Notes under the pieces: generated by a model
The model's database searches: none
Seen by the model: the letters and a program-made list of their open reading frames with translations, nothing else
Told to the model about the DNA's origin: nothing
Shown here: positions 545 to 28,559 of the stretch, in pieces
How the letters are laid out: each line of letters starts with the position of its first letter
How positions within the stretch are numbered: the stretch's first letter is position 1
Made by a program: the position numbers and the translations under genes
NCBI GenBank assembly: GCA_029225485.1
Contig: JAQXWO010000140.1
Location: 1 to 39,597 of the forward strand
DNA: 39,597 nt
Origin: Lachnospiraceae bacterium
GTDB lineage: Bacteria; Bacillota; Clostridia; Lachnospirales; Lachnospiraceae
Direction of reading: 5' to 3'

Positions 545-1645
545 ATGGAAATGATTCGGCTGACACAGGACGATATTCTGCAGCAGGATCTGGAGCGGAT
601 CGCTGCTTCAGAGATGATCAACTGGGAGCAGTTTAAGAATAAAAGTATTCTGGTGACGGGAGCGACAGGTCTGATTGGCAGTCAGATGGTACAGGCACTC
701 ATCCTTGCGGGGATCCAGAGAAACCTGGGGCTGACTGTGCTGGCAGCAGTGCGCAATGAGAAGAAGGCGGAGAAGATGCTGGGCGCCTGTCTGCCCTATG
801 GCTTGAAGATTGTGACGATCGATATCATGAAACCGATCGTGCTGGCTGATCCTGTGGATTATATTCTTCACGGAGCCAGCGTCACCACATCCAAGGATTT
901 TGTGGATCATCCTGCAGAGACGATACTGACTGCCCTGAAGGGCACGGAGCATCTGCTGGAGCTGGCCCGTGAGAAAAAGGTACAGGGCATGGTTTATCTG
1001 TCTTCCATGGAGGCTTACGGTGTGGTGGATCCGGAGCATTATGTGGTCCGGGAGACGGATTATGGATATATCGATCCGCTGCAGGTGCGCAGCAGTTATT
1101 CTGAGAGCAAACGTATGGCGGAGGGGCTGTGCGGCGCCTATGCTCACGAGTACCAGGTGCCGGTAAAAATCGTCCGTCTGGCACAGACTTTCGGCGCAGG
1201 GGCTCCGGAGACGGAGAACCGGGTATTTGTACAGTTTGCCCGCAGCATTATGACCGGGACGGATATTGTGCTGCACACGGATGGCAGCAAAGCCCACTGC
1301 TATTGCTATACTGCGGATGCAGTGCTGGGACTGCTGACCGTACTGCTGAAGGGGACACCTGGAGAAGCGTATAACGTATCCAACGAATCTACTTTTTCTT
1401 CGATCCGGGAGATGGCGGAGATGCTGGTTCAAAACTATCCGGAGAGCGGGTCAAAACTGGTATTTGACATTCCGGAGGATGCCAATAAATTCGGTTACGC
1501 GCCTACTTCCAGAATGCTGGTGAATGCGGAAAAGCTGTCCGGACTTGGCTGGAAACCGGAAATCAGTCTGGAAGGGATGTTTGAACGGCTGATGGCCAGC
1601 ATGAGACAGATGTGGAAAGAATTTGCTCATCTGGAAATTGAATAA
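545..1645 (+). CDS. NAD-dependent epimerase/dehydratase (extended SDR)
   Basis: ILVTGATGLIGSQMV Rossmann motif, YSESK catalytic YxxxK, terminal substrate-binding region. Confidence 0.9.
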   Translation: MEMIRLTQDDILQQDLERIAASEMINWEQFKNKSILVTGATGLIGSQMVQALILAGIQRNLGLTVLAAVRNEKKAEKMLGACLPYGLKIVTIDIMKPIVLADPVDYILHGASVTTSKDFVDHPAETILTALKGTEHLLELAREKKVQGMVYLSSMEAYGVVDPEHYVVRETDYGYIDPLQVRSSYSESKRMAEGLCGAYAHEYQVPVKIVRLAQTFGAGAPETENRVFVQFARSIMTGTDIVLHTDGSKAHCYCYTADAVLGLLTVLLKGTPGEAYNVSNESTFSSIREMAEMLVQNYPESGSKLVFDIPEDANKFGYAPTSRMLVNAEKLSGLGWKPEISLEGMFERLMASMRQMWKEFAHLEIE

Positions 1646-1661
1646 AGGAAAACAAAATATT

Positions 1662-2687
1662 ATGGAAAAAAAAAGAGTAACATGGATTGATACTGTTCGG
1701 GCAGCAGCGATGATAGTCGTTATTTTGGGACATATGCATGTAAAAAAATGGGAACAGGTATGGGCATATTCATTTCATATGCCAATATTTTTTCTGATTT
1801 CAGGGGCGGCATATTCGTTGTCTTCTAAAGCAAAAGCCATGGATACATGGGATTACATAAAATATCGTGCAAAGGGGTTAGTGGTTCCCTATTTTTGGTT
1901 AAATTTCCTGATGCTTCCGGTTTGGATTTTAAATTTTAAAATACTCGGAAGTACGAAAACTCCTTTGAAAAAAGAAATTCTGGGAATTTTTGTCTCAAAT
2001 GCGGGTATTATTAAATGTCCTTCAAATGCAACATGGTTTTTAACGGCCCTTTTTCTGACAACCGTGTGCTACTATCTGTTGGAAAAGATATGTAAATATG
2101 ACTTTGCGAAAATTTTTCTGTGGTGTATTTTAATAGGTATCTGTGGTTTTTTGATATCATTTACAAAATTGAGGAAAATCTATCTCCCATGGCATATTAA
2201 TGTCATACCGACAGCTATGTTATACTTTGGAATGGGTGTTGGTTTTATGAAATCCTATTCAACCATTATGAAACCTTTTGAGAGGTATAGATATTTATAT
2301 GGAAGTTTGTTTTTTATGATTGGAAGTGCTGCCGGAATTTTGAATGGTAAAGTAAGTATGCATGGAAATATTTATAAGAATGGTTTGTTGTTTCTGGTAT
2401 CCTCTATATTTATCAGCTTCAGTTTGGTATTGCTTCTGCAAAAGATTCCTGAAAAAATAGAGAGTTATCTCAGATTTATCGGAAGAAATACTTTGGTGAT
2501 CACGGCCGTGCACTGCCCGATGCTAAGGTTTCTTGAGAAATTTTCTTCGCAAACAAAATTATTTGTAAAGAATTATCCGAATGTTACAGCAGTTTTGATT
2601 CTGATAGCATCTATGCTTGTGGCATGGAGTATTAAACATTATTTTCCGTTTATGATTGGTGAGAAAAGAAAGAATAGGGTAGTGTAA
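1662..2687 (+). CDS. Acyltransferase 3 family membrane protein
   Basis: N-terminus 'RVTWIDTVRAAAMIVVILGHMHV' plus multiple hydrophobic helices; start chosen at internal ATG 1662 with MEKKRVTWID. Confidence 0.85.
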   Translation: MEKKRVTWIDTVRAAAMIVVILGHMHVKKWEQVWAYSFHMPIFFLISGAAYSLSSKAKAMDTWDYIKYRAKGLVVPYFWLNFLMLPVWILNFKILGSTKTPLKKEILGIFVSNAGIIKCPSNATWFLTALFLTTVCYYLLEKICKYDFAKIFLWCILIGICGFLISFTKLRKIYLPWHINVIPTAMLYFGMGVGFMKSYSTIMKPFERYRYLYGSLFFMIGSAAGILNGKVSMHGNIYKNGLLFLVSSIFISFSLVLLLQKIPEKIESYLRFIGRNTLVITAVHCPMLRFLEKFSSQTKLFVKNYPNVTAVLILIASMLVAWSIKHYFPFMIGEKRKNRVV

Positions 2688-2702
2688 CAGGAGGAGTCAA
2701 AT

Positions 2703-3485
2703 ATGGCAGAAGATTTGATTGAAAAGCTTGCCGCAAAAAAAATATGGATTATCGGAACGGATAGGGAAGTGACAGAAACAATAATTCAGATACTACAGGA
2801 TTCAAAAAAGGTACATTCTGCCAGATTTGAAATTGCAAAATTAGTGAATACACAATGGGGAGAAATCCTTCGGCACCAGTTGATACGTGTCAATAAAGTG
2901 CAATCGGGAGATTATGTAATTTTGGTTTGCAGAATGTCAGGGAAGGGCAACCTTATTGTGGATGAATTTGGCAGATATATATGGCAGGAGTTTCTGGCTC
3001 TGTCAGGATTATTGGAAGACCTGCGGAAATCAGATCCGGCTGCTGTGCTCCTGTTGTCTGATATAACGGTATATGGAAAGGTATTTGGCACTGTCCATGC
3101 TCTGAAAGAAGATGAACTGGGATATGTGTGCCATACGGATCCAAAAGATGCTGCGGTGCAGTGTACGAGAACAATGGAGCATCTTTGCAGCCGTCTGGGT
3201 CGGGAGGAAGGATTCCCGGTGAAGATTGCGAGAGCGGACTGGGACACTATGACGGAGCAGTCGGCAGAACTGAATGGGCAGCTGGCGTATCATATGCTGA
3301 AAGTGCTTCTGAGAGGGATGCCGGGAGAGGTATATAATCTGCCGGGAGCGGAGGAACTGAGAGCGGCGGCAGAAAATCCGGGGCGTCCGGTTGAGACCGG
3401 CAGACTCGGACAGGACTTTTCGGATCGTTCCCCGCTTTCCCCCATACCGATCATACCGGATGCAGGAAAGGCAGGGAGGCTGTGA
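2703..3485 (+). CDS. Degenerate SDR/epimerase-like protein lacking recognisable GxxGxxG and YxxxK motifs
   Basis: Follows epimerase layout ('VLLLSDITVYGKVFG', 'GMPGEVYNLPGAEE') but lacks glycine motif and catalytic Tyr-Lys; overlaps the next gene by 4 bp. Confidence 0.6.
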   Translation: MAEDLIEKLAAKKIWIIGTDREVTETIIQILQDSKKVHSARFEIAKLVNTQWGEILRHQLIRVNKVQSGDYVILVCRMSGKGNLIVDEFGRYIWQEFLALSGLLEDLRKSDPAAVLLLSDITVYGKVFGTVHALKEDELGYVCHTDPKDAAVQCTRTMEHLCSRLGREEGFPVKIARADWDTMTEQSAELNGQLAYHMLKVLLRGMPGEVYNLPGAEELRAAAENPGRPVETGRLGQDFSDRSPLSPIPIIPDAGKAGRL

Positions 3486-22742: not shown

Positions 22743-24461
22743 ATGAAATCTTTGAAACGCACGGCTGAAATTCTTGTGTTGCTTTTCGTCCTTGTTGTAT
22801 CTGTGAATATGATTCATCCTTCATATGCCGGTGCAGCAACAAATGGAAAGACACAAAGTGATGCAGTCAACTGGGCATGTGCCCGTGGGAATGAAGGCTG
22901 GAATCAGGATGTGGACGGAGTGTATGGTTGCCAGTGTGTGGATCTTATCCTGGCATATTATGATTATCTTCTTGGATATCATCAGAGTGGAAATGCAAAG
23001 GATTACAGCAATAATACACCGCCTGCCGGATGGACAAAGGTATACAGCAACCCACAGCCGGGAGATGTTGTGGTATGGGGGGCCGGTGCGCAGATGGGCT
23101 GGTATCCGCTTGAGACAAGTTATGCAAATAGTGATTTTGGACATATTGGAATTGTATGGCGTGTGAATGCGAGCGGAACGCTCTCGACGATTGAGACAAA
23201 TGCTTCGCAGGGGCAGAAAGCTGCTTATTATGAGCGCTATCCGAATAATGCAGCGTGTTTTATTCGTCCGGATTTTGCTTCAGGCAGCAGTACACCGACT
23301 CCGGTGCCGGGAGATGGTATTACCTGGTCGACCCAGACTCCGGTGGTTACTGAGACAAATGCAATCGTAAAAACACATGTGGTACCGCCAAGTCGTGTAT
23401 ATGTACAATGGTCCGGCTGCAATTTTTTTGATGCAAACGGAACAGAGATAGCAAAGGCCGGAGAAACAGCAGGGTTTCATGCATCCTATATCGATATGAC
23501 CTGGAATGTGAATGAAGAAACATGGACTCATTATTCTCTCCAGCCAGGTACCACCTATAAGTATCAGTTTTATGTGACATGGGGTGGTGTAGATCATTTT
23601 AGTCCAATGTATTCTTTTACAACGCCTCAGACTGTGACAGTGCCCCCGGTGCATAATCACAATTATAGTCAGAGTGTGACAAAAGCGGCTACATGCAGTT
23701 CCAAAGGCATAATGACGTACACTTGCGCATGTGGAAGCAAATATACAAAAGAGATTGCCCGAAAAGCTCATTCGAATACAGTTATCAAAAACAAAAAGAC
23801 GGCGACTTGTAAGGCAGAAGGATATACCGGAGATTCCTGCTGCAGTGTGTGCGGCACTGTGGTAAAGAAAGGCACTGTTATTGCTAAAAAGGCCCATACG
23901 TGGGATGCCGGCAAGGTTAAGGTAAAAGCGACAGCCACTAAGGACGGAATAAAAGAATATAAATGTAAGGTGTGTGCGGATGTACGTCAGGAAAAAATCA
24001 AAGCCACAGGCGTCAAACAGAAACCTGCAAAAGCAGGAGCGATACTGAAAGTTTCATCTGCAGAATACAAAGTATGTGCAGACAGAAAAAGTGTGGAATA
24101 TCGTAAATGCAAAAAGGGTGCGAAGAGTGTGACGATTCCGTCAACTATAAAAGTCAAAGGCATTACGTATAAGGTGATTGGTATTTCAGAAAATGCTTTT
24201 AAAAATAACAAGGCAGTGACCAGAGTTACAATCGGTGCAAATGTAAAATATATTAAAAAATATGCATTTTACAAGTGTAAAAACCTGAAGAAAATTGTAG
24301 TAAAGACAAAATTACTCAAGAAAGGCAAGATTGGAACAAAAGCATTTTACGGAATCAATGCCAGAGCAACAATTGCAGTACCGAAAAGTAAATTTTTCTA
24401 TTATGCATTGTCAGTATTTCGTTCAAGTGCAGGTTCAAAAACAGAGTTTGATATCATATAG
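22743..24461 (+). CDS. Secreted CHAP-domain (amidase/endopeptidase) protein with fibronectin-like region, Cys-rich repeats and C-terminal LRR_5/BspA-like repeats
   Basis: Signal peptide; CHAP 'VYGCQCVDLILAYYDYL...PGDVVVWG...FGHIGIVWRV'; two 'A.C...G...YTC..CG' units; 'AFKNNKAVTRVTIGANVKYIKKYAFYKCKNLKKIVVKT'. No LPxTG-like C-terminus seen. Confidence 0.85.
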   Translation: MKSLKRTAEILVLLFVLVVSVNMIHPSYAGAATNGKTQSDAVNWACARGNEGWNQDVDGVYGCQCVDLILAYYDYLLGYHQSGNAKDYSNNTPPAGWTKVYSNPQPGDVVVWGAGAQMGWYPLETSYANSDFGHIGIVWRVNASGTLSTIETNASQGQKAAYYERYPNNAACFIRPDFASGSSTPTPVPGDGITWSTQTPVVTETNAIVKTHVVPPSRVYVQWSGCNFFDANGTEIAKAGETAGFHASYIDMTWNVNEETWTHYSLQPGTTYKYQFYVTWGGVDHFSPMYSFTTPQTVTVPPVHNHNYSQSVTKAATCSSKGIMTYTCACGSKYTKEIARKAHSNTVIKNKKTATCKAEGYTGDSCCSVCGTVVKKGTVIAKKAHTWDAGKVKVKATATKDGIKEYKCKVCADVRQEKIKATGVKQKPAKAGAILKVSSAEYKVCADRKSVEYRKCKKGAKSVTIPSTIKVKGITYKVIGISENAFKNNKAVTRVTIGANVKYIKKYAFYKCKNLKKIVVKTKLLKKGKIGTKAFYGINARATIAVPKSKFFYYALSVFRSSAGSKTEFDII

Positions 24462-24496: not shown

Positions 24497-24541
24497 AAAG
24501 CCCTTAAATACCGGATTTCCCGGTGTTTGAGGGCTTTTTCT
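24497..24541 (+). terminator. Rho-independent terminator after CHAP gene
   Basis: AAAGCCCTTAAATACCGG-ATTTC-CCGGTGTTTGAGGGCTTTTT: 18-bp stem with two G:U pairs. Confidence 0.85.
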
Positions 24542-24551
24542 TATTTTAGTG

Positions 24552-24580
24552 TTGATACAGATAGTTCAACAGCGTATAAT
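24552..24580 (+). promoter_or_regulatory. Putative sigma-A promoter of TPR-HK/REC/PIN operon
   Basis: TTGATA (24552-24557), 17-bp spacer, perfect TATAAT (24575-24580). Confidence 0.65.
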
Positions 24581-24663: not shown

Positions 24664-26415
24664 ATGAGCCAAAGTAATATCAATGAAAAAACGCAGTATT
24701 CTCGAAAAATATGGAATTTGAGACAGCAGGGAAAACTGACAGAGGCAATAAAAGTTTGCGGGGATGCTGTTCATGAATTTGCTGATTCTAACTTTTTCTA
24801 TAAGATTCATGGAGATTTGTTTTTTGAGAATGGTCAATTGGACGAAGCACTGGATTCTTATTTGAAATATTTGGATAAAATAAAAAAAGAACCCGAATAT
24901 TTTACAAATTTCACAAAGTTTTTTCAACGTTTAAATTACAGAAAATCCATAGATGAGAGGGTATTTAATCATCTTGCGAAAATAGTGGTTTGTGAAGGAT
25001 ATCCATATGTTTTACGAAATGGTATGGTCAGACTTTTGATGGATACGTTTGGAGTGCCGGAGGAACTGGAACAGGCCATATCCCGGGCTATGGGAAAGAT
25101 TCAGTTTGAAATAGTCAAGGCGGATTATGAAGACATATGTAGAAAAGGAAAATGCAGAGAAATCATTTATTTAGTGAGAATTTCAGAGAAAACATGTATT
25201 AGAGAAGAGGATAGTTTCAATCGTTATATTCTGAAAAGGCTTGAAGGGAATAAATTATATGAGCAGGCTGTCAGATGGACAAAGAAGATCTTAAATTACA
25301 GCAGCGATGCAGTTATAATTCGGACCCTGTTTCGTTTATGCAGGGAAAGCTCTGATTACAGTGTGGCGGAAGAATATCTGGAAAAAAACGATATTGTCGA
25401 TTGGGAAGAGTTCAACATCCAGTATGAGCTTGTAATGTATTTTGATTCGATTGGAGATGAAGTAAGCAGAAACCGGGCACTGGAATATATTGAAAAATCA
25501 TCTGTGAACAGCCTGCCGATTCTCAGAACACTGTTCAAATTTTATGTTAAATTCAATAAGCTGGACAAGGCAAAAGCGGTTCAGGAAAAAATCGCAAATT
25601 TTAAAAAAAGCAGGACTACGCAAAAAGCAAAGAAAGAGACGGAAAATATTGTATGGGATCGACTCAGGACACTGGTGACAGAACAGGAACATAACAGACA
25701 GCTTCTTGCAATGTCTGAACTGATCAAAGGATTTTCCCATGAGTTGGGACAGCCTATAACAAATATTCGGTATGCGGTACAGCTGTTTTATATGAAAAAT
25801 AAAAAAACAAATCAGAAAATCAGTGCGGAAGAGCAGGAATTATTTGATGGCATACTACGGCAGACAGAAAGAGTGGGAAAATTGCTGGATCGTTTTTCTC
25901 CTATTGTATCGAGTAAAAGTATAAAAGAATTTTTTAATGTTTATGAAGCAATATGTAGTATCTTTGATGAACTGTCATCTCGTCTTCATAATGAAGGGAT
26001 CCGTTACAGCGTAGGTGGAGATAAGAATTGCAGAATTTATGGCGAAAAATTACAGTTTGGACAGGTATTTTATAATCTGATTATTAATTCTATCTATGCA
26101 ATCAGGCACCGGAGAACGGAAGGAAAAATCGAGGTAAGGATTGAAAGCAGAGAAAATATCCTGAAAATAGAATTCAGTGATAATGGTATCGGAATACCTC
26201 CGGAATTAAGCAGAAAGATTTTTAACCCGTTTTTTTCTACCAAGGACAAAGAGGTGGAAGAAGGTGGAGAAGGACTTGGATTATTTATTGTATGGAATAT
26301 TTTAAAAATTTTTTCCGGCAAAATCTATGTTGATGAAAAATACGGTCAGGGAGCAAAGTTTGTAATAGAAATAAATGAAAAGGAGAATAAAAATGTTTCA
26401 CATTTTAGTTGTTGA
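24664..26415 (+). CDS. Soluble sensor histidine kinase with N-terminal TPR-like helical repeats
   Basis: N-terminal 'IWNLRQQGKLTEAIKVCGDAVHEFADSNFFYKIHGDLFFENGQLDEALDSYLKYLDKI' (TPR pattern); H-box 'KGFSHELGQPITNIRYAV', N-box 'FYNLIINSIYAI', 'FSDNGIGIPPEL', 'GGEGLGLFIVWNIL'. No TM segment seen. Confidence 0.9.
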   Translation: MSQSNINEKTQYSRKIWNLRQQGKLTEAIKVCGDAVHEFADSNFFYKIHGDLFFENGQLDEALDSYLKYLDKIKKEPEYFTNFTKFFQRLNYRKSIDERVFNHLAKIVVCEGYPYVLRNGMVRLLMDTFGVPEELEQAISRAMGKIQFEIVKADYEDICRKGKCREIIYLVRISEKTCIREEDSFNRYILKRLEGNKLYEQAVRWTKKILNYSSDAVIIRTLFRLCRESSDYSVAEEYLEKNDIVDWEEFNIQYELVMYFDSIGDEVSRNRALEYIEKSSVNSLPILRTLFKFYVKFNKLDKAKAVQEKIANFKKSRTTQKAKKETENIVWDRLRTLVTEQEHNRQLLAMSELIKGFSHELGQPITNIRYAVQLFYMKNKKTNQKISAEEQELFDGILRQTERVGKLLDRFSPIVSSKSIKEFFNVYEAICSIFDELSSRLHNEGIRYSVGGDKNCRIYGEKLQFGQVFYNLIINSIYAIRHRRTEGKIEVRIESRENILKIEFSDNGIGIPPELSRKIFNPFFSTKDKEVEEGGEGLGLFIVWNILKIFSGKIYVDEKYGQGAKFVIEINEKENKNVSHFSC

Positions 26416-26809
26416 GGATGAAAAAGACACTGCAGAATATGTAAAACAGGCGTTGGAACTGGAAGGAATGCAGGCTGATATTGCCTATGACGGACAGGAA
26501 GGTTTGGCGATGTTTCGGAGTAAGGAATATGATTTGCTTTTGCTGGATTTACAGATGCCTAAAATGACAGGAGAAGAACTTCTAAAAGAAATAAGGAAAG
26601 AAAATCCGTATATAGATATTATAGTATATACGAATTTTGAGAGATTTGGGGACATAAAAAAACTTGTTAATATGGGAATTAATGGATATGTGAATAAAGG
26701 ACCAAATGCGGATCTTGGAGAATTAGTGGATATGATAAAGGGAAAACTGGAGCCGCTGGATGAGGAGGATATGATTCGTCTGATAAAAAGTACGGACGAG
26801 ATAAAGTAA
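26393..26809 (+). CDS. Receiver-domain-only response regulator
   Basis: 'ILVVEDEKDTAEYV', 'YDLLLLDLQMPKMTGEE', 'IIVYTNF', 'GYVNKGPN' acidic pocket, phospho-Asp, Thr and Lys all present; no output domain; overlaps kinase stop by 23 bp. Confidence 0.9.
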   Translation: MFHILVVEDEKDTAEYVKQALELEGMQADIAYDGQEGLAMFRSKEYDLLLLDLQMPKMTGEELLKEIRKENPYIDIIVYTNFERFGDIKKLVNMGINGYVNKGPNADLGELVDMIKGKLEPLDEEDMIRLIKSTDEIK

Positions 26810-26822
26810 AAAAGGGGTTTCT

Positions 26823-27368
26823 ATGGCAAAGTATTTATTAGATACGAATGCGTATTTTGAAATTTTAAAATATGTTGTTGGTCAGGAAGATAATGAAATA
26901 ATCCGCAGAATTATAAATGAAAAGTGTTACATTTCCAAGTTGACTAAAATAGAAATCATTTCTGTGATAGGAAAATACTCCCGCGGGCAGAGTAAGCAGA
27001 TCCAGATATGTGACAGAGTGCATGAAGATTCAGCAGATAAATGTGGCAGACGTTATGTTATTGCAGAACGCAGAAAGTGGAATTCCAGAAAATTGAGGGA
27101 CTGGATGAAACTGGAAAAAGAAATTACGAATGGAACCAATGAAAAGATTAAAATTGAAGTTCTGGAAATAAATCCGAAGGTGGTAAGCGAAGCAGAACGT
27201 TTTATACAGCATGCACTGAAGCAAAATTTTAAGTCTATGGATGCGATGATTCTTGGAACAGCCAGTGCATATTCAGAACAGGGAAATGAAATGATAGTTG
27301 TAACTGCCGATAAAGGTTTGAAGGCAGGGATGAATCGTATAGGTTTTTCGTATTTATCATTAGTTTAG
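26823..27368 (+). CDS. PIN-domain putative ribonuclease
   Basis: 'KYLLDTNAYFEIL' first Asp, 'ISKLTKIEIISVIG' Glu, 'FKSMDAMILGTA' Asp, 'VVTADKGL' Asp: the D-E-D-D arrangement of PIN nucleases; starts 14 bp after the RR stop. Confidence 0.85.
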   Translation: MAKYLLDTNAYFEILKYVVGQEDNEIIRRIINEKCYISKLTKIEIISVIGKYSRGQSKQIQICDRVHEDSADKCGRRYVIAERRKWNSRKLRDWMKLEKEITNGTNEKIKIEVLEINPKVVSEAERFIQHALKQNFKSMDAMILGTASAYSEQGNEMIVVTADKGLKAGMNRIGFSYLSLV

Positions 27369-27437: not shown

Positions 27438-28559
27438 GTGCATACAATGAACAGCAATTCAGAAATCTACCGTATTTTTATTATAAATCCCGGTTCTACC
27501 TCAACCAAGCTTTCCATGTTTGAGAATGAGGACAATTTATTTACCACGGATGTGTTTCATGATTCTTCGGTTCTGAAAGAATTCCCAACGATCAACGACC
27601 AGCTGGACTACCGCATGCAGGTGGTGGAGGATTTTCTGAAGGAGCATCAGATTGATCTGACCGGTTTGGATGCCATTGTGGGCCGGGGAGGCGGATGTTA
27701 TCCGGTAGAAGGAGGTATCTACCAGATTGATGACCGTCTGATCCAGGATACCCGGGAAGCAAAGGGAGGTCTGTACCATGCCTCCATGCTGGGTGTACAG
27801 ATGGCCAGTGAGCTTCAGAAAGAGTATGGAGGAATCATGCTGATGATGGATCCGCCTGTGGTGGATGAACTGTGTGATCTGGCCCGCATTACCGGTGTCA
27901 AAGGGATTTACCGCAGGACTGCGGCCCATGTATTGAATCTGAAAGAGACGGCGAGACGTCACGCGGTGTCCATGGGAAGACGGTATGAGGACTGCAATTT
28001 CATTGTCTGCCATATCGACGGAGGCATTACGGTGACAGCGCATGAAAAGGGAAGGATGATCGATGCCAATGACGGAGGCGGAGGCGAAGGTCCGTTTACG
28101 CCGACCCGTATGGGCTCAATGGCAGTGACGGATGTGATCCGGCAGCTGAAGGACAGGACGCCGGAGGAGATGCGGTCGCTGTGCAGCCAGACAGGAGGGC
28201 TGTCCAGCCATTTCGGTACTTCCAATTCTGACACGATCCATCGTATGGTGGAAGCAGGTGATCCGGAGGCTGTCCGTGTGTGGAATGCCATGATCTATCA
28301 GGTCAGCAAGTGGATCGGTTCCATGAGTACAGTTTTGAAAGGACAGGTGGATGGAATCCTTCTGACCGGGGGACTGGTGCGCTTCCGGGATGTGGTGGAC
28401 CAGATCCGGGAGAACTGCGGATGGATCGCTCCGGTCAGCGTCTACCCGGGAGAATTCGAGCAGGAGGCCATGGCGGCGGGAGCATTGCGCATCCTGCGGG
28501 GAGAAGAAGAAGCGAAGATCTATTCCGGAAGGCCGGTGTGGGAAGGATTTCAGGATTGA
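27438..28559 (+). CDS. buk: Butyrate kinase (ASKHA acetate/butyrate kinase family)
   Basis: 'FIINPGSTSTKLSMFENE', 'VGRGGGCYPVEGGIY', 'FIVCHIDGGITVTAHEKGRMID', 'DGILLTGGLVRF'. Alternative start at 27447. Confidence 0.92.
   Translation: MHTMNSNSEIYRIFIINPGSTSTKLSMFENEDNLFTTDVFHDSSVLKEFPTINDQLDYRMQVVEDFLKEHQIDLTGLDAIVGRGGGCYPVEGGIYQIDDRLIQDTREAKGGLYHASMLGVQMASELQKEYGGIMLMMDPPVVDELCDLARITGVKGIYRRTAAHVLNLKETARRHAVSMGRRYEDCNFIVCHIDGGITVTAHEKGRMIDANDGGGGEGPFTPTRMGSMAVTDVIRQLKDRTPEEMRSLCSQTGGLSSHFGTSNSDTIHRMVEAGDPEAVRVWNAMIYQVSKWIGSMSTVLKGQVDGILLTGGLVRFRDVVDQIRENCGWIAPVSVYPGEFEQEAMAAGALRILRGEEEAKIYSGRPVWEGFQD

Follow-up and report, generated by a model that had tools for sequence, protein, structure and literature searches.

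A three-gene cassette on Lachnospiraceae bacterium contig JAQXWO010000140.1, encoding a soluble histidine kinase, a stand-alone receiver and a putative PIN-fold nuclease, appears to be a so far unrecorded phosphorelay-controlled RNase switch that may well act against phage. It spans positions 24664-27368 of the stretch of DNA analysed (39,597 nucleotides; hereafter the window), with all three open reading frames on the + strand. We give roughly even chances to a horizontally moving signalling-effector cassette in which the state of the receiver gates the PIN RNase, most likely for anti-phage abortive infection. The features at the locus are:

24497..24537, + strand: intrinsic terminator of the gene upstream of the cassette (18-pair stem, loop of 5, T tail)
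24552..24580, + strand: sigma-A type promoter, TTGATA-17-TATAAT (11/12 consensus positions; consensus match alone)
24664..26415, + strand: soluble TPR-like histidine kinase, 583 aa (Pfam HisKA and HATPase_c)
26393..26809, + strand: stand-alone receiver (REC), 138 aa (Pfam Response_reg and 8-sequence alignment)
26823..27368, + strand: putative PIN-fold nuclease, 181 aa (Pfam PIN, alignment, AlphaFold2 and Foldseek)

The original prediction, made from this DNA alone, described three tightly packed genes behind a good sigma-A promoter and a strong upstream terminator, and the reading frames, promoter and terminator were all confirmed, with the terminator isolating the cassette from the upstream gene. 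The mechanically called receiver frame starts at 26375, and the likely true start is the ATG at 26393, which we adopted because of a Shine-Dalgarno sequence (AAGGAG) and the homologues. This start gives the predicted 23-base overlap with the kinase gene; the receiver–PIN gap, put at 14 bp, measures 13 bases. As also predicted, the cassette is AT-richer than its neighbours (GC 0.357 versus 0.495 in the flanks). Between the PIN gene and a butyrate-kinase-like gene 70 bases downstream we found no intrinsic terminator, so the cassette transcript may continue into the downstream region. An Rfam search at the locus gave no match.

The kinase was expected to lack a transmembrane segment and to carry TPR-like repeats. 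In agreement, no membrane segment was evident on reading the sequence, weak Pfam TPR matches accompanied those to HisKA (E 8e-8) and HATPase_c (E 6e-21), and the structure model placed helical repeats across residues 1-316. Confidence in this model was low for the catalytic part because the alignment was shallow. The catalytic motifs comprise the phospho-acceptor H359 (SHELGQP), N471, D506-N-G and GGEGLGL, and these residues (H359, N471, D506 and the G-box) are invariant in 7 homologues. Sensor residues 1-180 share 20-44% identity with the other copies, versus 64-75% for HisKA. Such fast divergence would suit a sensor whose target shifts, although the sensor domains of ordinary two-component systems also evolve quickly.

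The receiver (Response_reg, E 2.6e-25) has invariant D9, D52, T80 and K102 in the 8-sequence alignment. At all 8 loci it is a receiver-only protein of 138-140 aa, otherwise complete and ending in a short conserved tail (KLEP) with no output domain, which bears out the prediction of a regulator without a DNA-binding domain. The cassette therefore has the catalytic His kinase and phosphorylatable receiver residues of an orthodox two-component system, but lacks the DNA-binding output domain expected of its response regulator.

The third protein was predicted to be a PIN fold with D-E-D-D acidic residues, unfused to a receiver. Indeed, it matched Pfam PIN (PF01850) at E 8e-9, the acidic site D7/E44/D140/D163 is invariant in the 8-locus alignment, and PIN is its only domain at all 8 loci. 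The AlphaFold2 model was confident (pLDDT 85.7, pTM 0.78), and a Foldseek search with it, as the original prediction had proposed, returned VapC/FitB-type proteins as the closest solved structures; the PIN profile matched no sequence in the PDB. An extra segment at approximately residues 53-87 forms a beta-hairpin with invariant C63, C74 and W86, and C35 is also invariant. Metal or partner binding by C63 and C74 would be a guess. The PIN fold, the four acidic residues and the nearest Foldseek matches recall VapBC, whereas the 181-aa length with a cysteine-bearing hairpin and the presence of a kinase and receiver in the antitoxin's place do not. No VapB-like antitoxin frame lies directly upstream or downstream of the PIN gene, the receiver and PIN genes being 13 bases apart, and since VapB is missing there the cassette is not a VapBC system.

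Next, we considered whether the three genes belong together. When an alignment of two PIN sequences was scanned once against ∼85,000 species genomes, 7 PIN relatives (42-60% identity) emerged, mostly in Lachnospiraceae. The genes had been predicted to form one unit and, rather than failing to co-occur, they keep the same kinase-receiver-PIN order and orientation by translated comparison at 7/7 other loci (L002 and L010 are one locus); because of this recurrence, the order is more than chance. Short gaps or overlaps are also kept between the cassette genes across loci (-23 to 0 and 8 to 49 bases). The dN/dS ratio was ∼0.06-0.14 between closer pairs for all three genes, indicating purifying selection on each; many distant pairs were saturated at synonymous sites and were left out. 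Pairwise identities of the three proteins, compared as distance matrices, were congruent (r 0.96-0.97), a value reached in 1-10 of 5,040-40,320 relabellings. A ninth genome, G392, has only a deletion scar of ∼400 bases covering all three genes, in which kinase residues ∼252-294, receiver residues ∼83-98 and PIN residues ∼109-190 have been fused by deletions. Since the scar retains pieces of all three, the genes were formerly together in G392 and were then lost.

PIN genes are common and often solitary, which would favour reading this one as a VapC in decay, or as a passenger with no tie to an otherwise ordinary two-component pair. We find that barely credible, and rejected the passenger on linkage and selection: the PIN gene is linked in 8/8 cases, its acidic site is invariant, its dN/dS is ∼0.1 and its divergence is congruent with that of its partners, so it is neither remnant nor passenger. 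The decay of a VapC, which the original prediction had raised against itself, is excluded by the invariant acidic site and the low dN/dS. On these sequence comparisons, the PIN gene is an integral part of the cassette. Three irregularities were seen among the other copies. At L011:5821-7576 the kinase gene is frameshifted with receiver and PIN intact, reflecting early decay or an assembly error, and the L009 kinase is interrupted by a run of N. The L009 contig is binned as Muribaculaceae (Bacteroidota) and its copy is very like the Lachnospiraceae ones, due to either a binning error or cross-phylum transfer.

The cassette is rare, occurring in 3/397 sampled family genomes with the G392 scar counted. 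The PIN protein was found at convincing scores in 2 of these 397 genomes plus the scar, and a fourth match (E 6e-4) looks unrelated. A profile of the kinase N-terminus matched the same 3 genomes strongly, each with PIN sequence alongside, and gave only weak TPR-like matches elsewhere; hence no variant with another effector was seen among the 397. Flanking genes differ at every locus and cassette GC is lower than that of the flanks in 7/7 loci. The predicted accessory island is thus upheld by rarity, unrelated locations and AT-richness. No relatives were found on viral contigs by scans with the PIN alignment or the kinase N-terminal alignment, nor among plasmids and phages by tblastn with PIN; plasmid matches to the kinase proved, in the two neighbourhoods inspected, to be ordinary sensor kinases encoded next to DNA-binding regulators. 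In an empty-site comparison, the genes on the two sides of the cassette did not stay adjacent in same-genus relatives.

The cassette has unremarkable neighbours in the window, namely an ssb/ribosomal-protein cluster (identified by reading), a surface protein of CHAP/LRR type and the butyrate-kinase-like gene. The upstream gene (22743-24461) encodes a protein with a signal-like N-terminus, a CHAP domain and leucine-rich repeats of the BspA type, a probable surface or wall hydrolase. The downstream butyrate/acetate-kinase-like gene (27438-28559) has strong orthologues in only some same-genus genomes. A second AT-rich stretch of the window (1501-3000; GC ∼0.35), with an acyltransferase-3 gene adjoining an epimerase and a LicD gene, is likely a surface polysaccharide locus. 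Elsewhere, the cassette lies directly downstream of a SIR2_2/ThsA-like gene (L006), near an AAA-ATPase/PD-(D/E)XK gene (L008), ∼5.6 kb from a PDC-M12-like AAA pair (L009) or downstream of three serine recombinases (L012). These neighbours are few, and their sequences suggest surroundings that are accessory and partly defence-like. At L006:1513-5713, the SIR2_2/ThsA-like gene begins 10 bases after the gene for a protein of up to 995 aa, which matches nothing in Pfam or PADLOC and contains an HExxH-like motif (HECMH); together they are possibly an uncharacterised two-gene defence pair adjoining the cassette.

These distributions bear on two other roles. One is a toxin-antitoxin (or addiction) module subject to regulation, in which the antitoxin of a PIN toxin would be the receiver or the kinase-receiver pair and the unit would serve mobile-segment maintenance or dormancy. 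The VapC-like fold fits, as do the recombinases in L012 and the patchy distribution, and with no VapB-like gene the receiver is the sole small partner; however, a sensor kinase of 583 aa would be unusually costly for such a module, no plasmid copies were found, and the G392 scar is evidence that a genome can dispense with the unit, whichever deletion came first. We regard this role as unlikely. The other is a stress or nutrient response, in which the relay would answer to metabolic or stress signals and the PIN RNase would remodel RNA pools short of killing the cell, the unit being an accessory trait that adds to fitness; this seems to us similarly improbable. Architecture alone is equally compatible with it, the sensor could respond to a ligand of any kind, and the L010 and L011 contexts are not defence-like, yet a unit so rare, so low in GC and so variable in location is less typical of a housekeeping stress response than of defence or mobile cargo.

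The original prediction compared the cassette with Detocs, in which DtcB is a phosphate buffer and a response-regulator effector, DtcC, is also present (PMC11728103); the best-known Detocs effector is a PNP that cleaves ATP (PMC11249213). The likeness is one of architecture only: a soluble repeat-type histidine kinase, a stand-alone receiver and a toxic-type effector in a three-gene accessory operon. In contrast to the receiver-fused DtcC, the third gene encodes PIN only in all 8 loci, and by Pfam the effector is PIN rather than PNP_UDP_1. Because the outline is Detocs-like yet the receiver-effector fusion is missing, the comparison holds as an analogy and not as membership; the single receiver and free PIN that decide this had partly been noted with the prediction. 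The cassette is not Detocs. A true Detocs variant that lost its second receiver and exchanged its effector would retain the soluble TPR kinase, lone receiver and effector, and the receiver does match PADLOC PDC-M60B at 6e-8, a strength that many receivers would give. The N-terminal part of PDC-M60C finds receivers and its C-terminal part PNP_UDP_1 proteins, so this model appears to be a receiver plus PNP domain, i.e. the DtcC layout. Against such descent, there is one receiver only and no receiver-fused effector, and the kinase matched no PDC-M60 model; we consider it very unlikely. The E. coli ssb-yjcB islands examined for DtcA carried restriction and Avs4/AbiGi-like genes instead.

PADLOC has no model for a kinase-receiver-PIN unit, and no publication on such a system was found in the open literature searched; the original Detocs paper lies outside it, and its effector table or supplements could list similar systems. 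PIN domains are essential for phage defence in systems found by DefensePredictor (PMC13092281). Two of these, DS-3 and DS-5, resemble the cassette in that a PIN RNase is needed for defence without a classical antitoxin, but DS-3 is a single protein and DS-5 pairs with a DUF5830/AcrIF4-like protein, with no two-component partner described for either (PMC13092281). TPR, HATPase and REC are also named in one of its figures, which shows predicted systems that have not been validated (PMC13092281).

We propose that the cytosolic kinase would read an internal signal, putatively phage-derived, through its fast-evolving repeat domain and alter phosphorylation of the lone receiver at Asp52, a transfer expected from established two-component biochemistry. 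The receiver would bind PIN directly, one phosphorylation state holding it inactive or switching it on. We infer this gating from the exclusive linkage, the overlapping or near-touching genes and the lack of any other output or antitoxin; phosphorylation may either release or activate PIN. Alternatively, the target of the receiver could be a partner encoded elsewhere. If the receiver does gate PIN, the nuclease would cut RNA (tRNA or rRNA, by analogy with VapC) and so stop growth, as PIN/VapC precedent suggests. This would most probably amount to abortive infection against phage, defence being the likeliest role in view of how mobile and rare the cassette is, where it lies and the PIN-based defences already published (PMC13092281). 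Counting against the proposal are the absence of PIN relatives from the viral-contig, plasmid and phage searches and of the unit from the PADLOC models. More tentatively, and at somewhat under even chances, the free receiver would be a phospho-switchable antitoxin or activator of the PIN RNase, through which the kinase directly arms an RNA-cutting toxin without transcription; this would be a two-component toxin system and a new type of anti-phage defence.

If true, bacteria would have linked two-component signalling to self-damaging effectors on more than one occasion, in this case with an RNase held by a separate receiver in place of a response-regulator enzyme that cleaves ATP. A soluble repeat kinase with a lone receiver and an effector also provides a search template for systems missed by current defence catalogues. 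For gut Lachnospiraceae, the cassette would represent a compact, testable three-protein switch.
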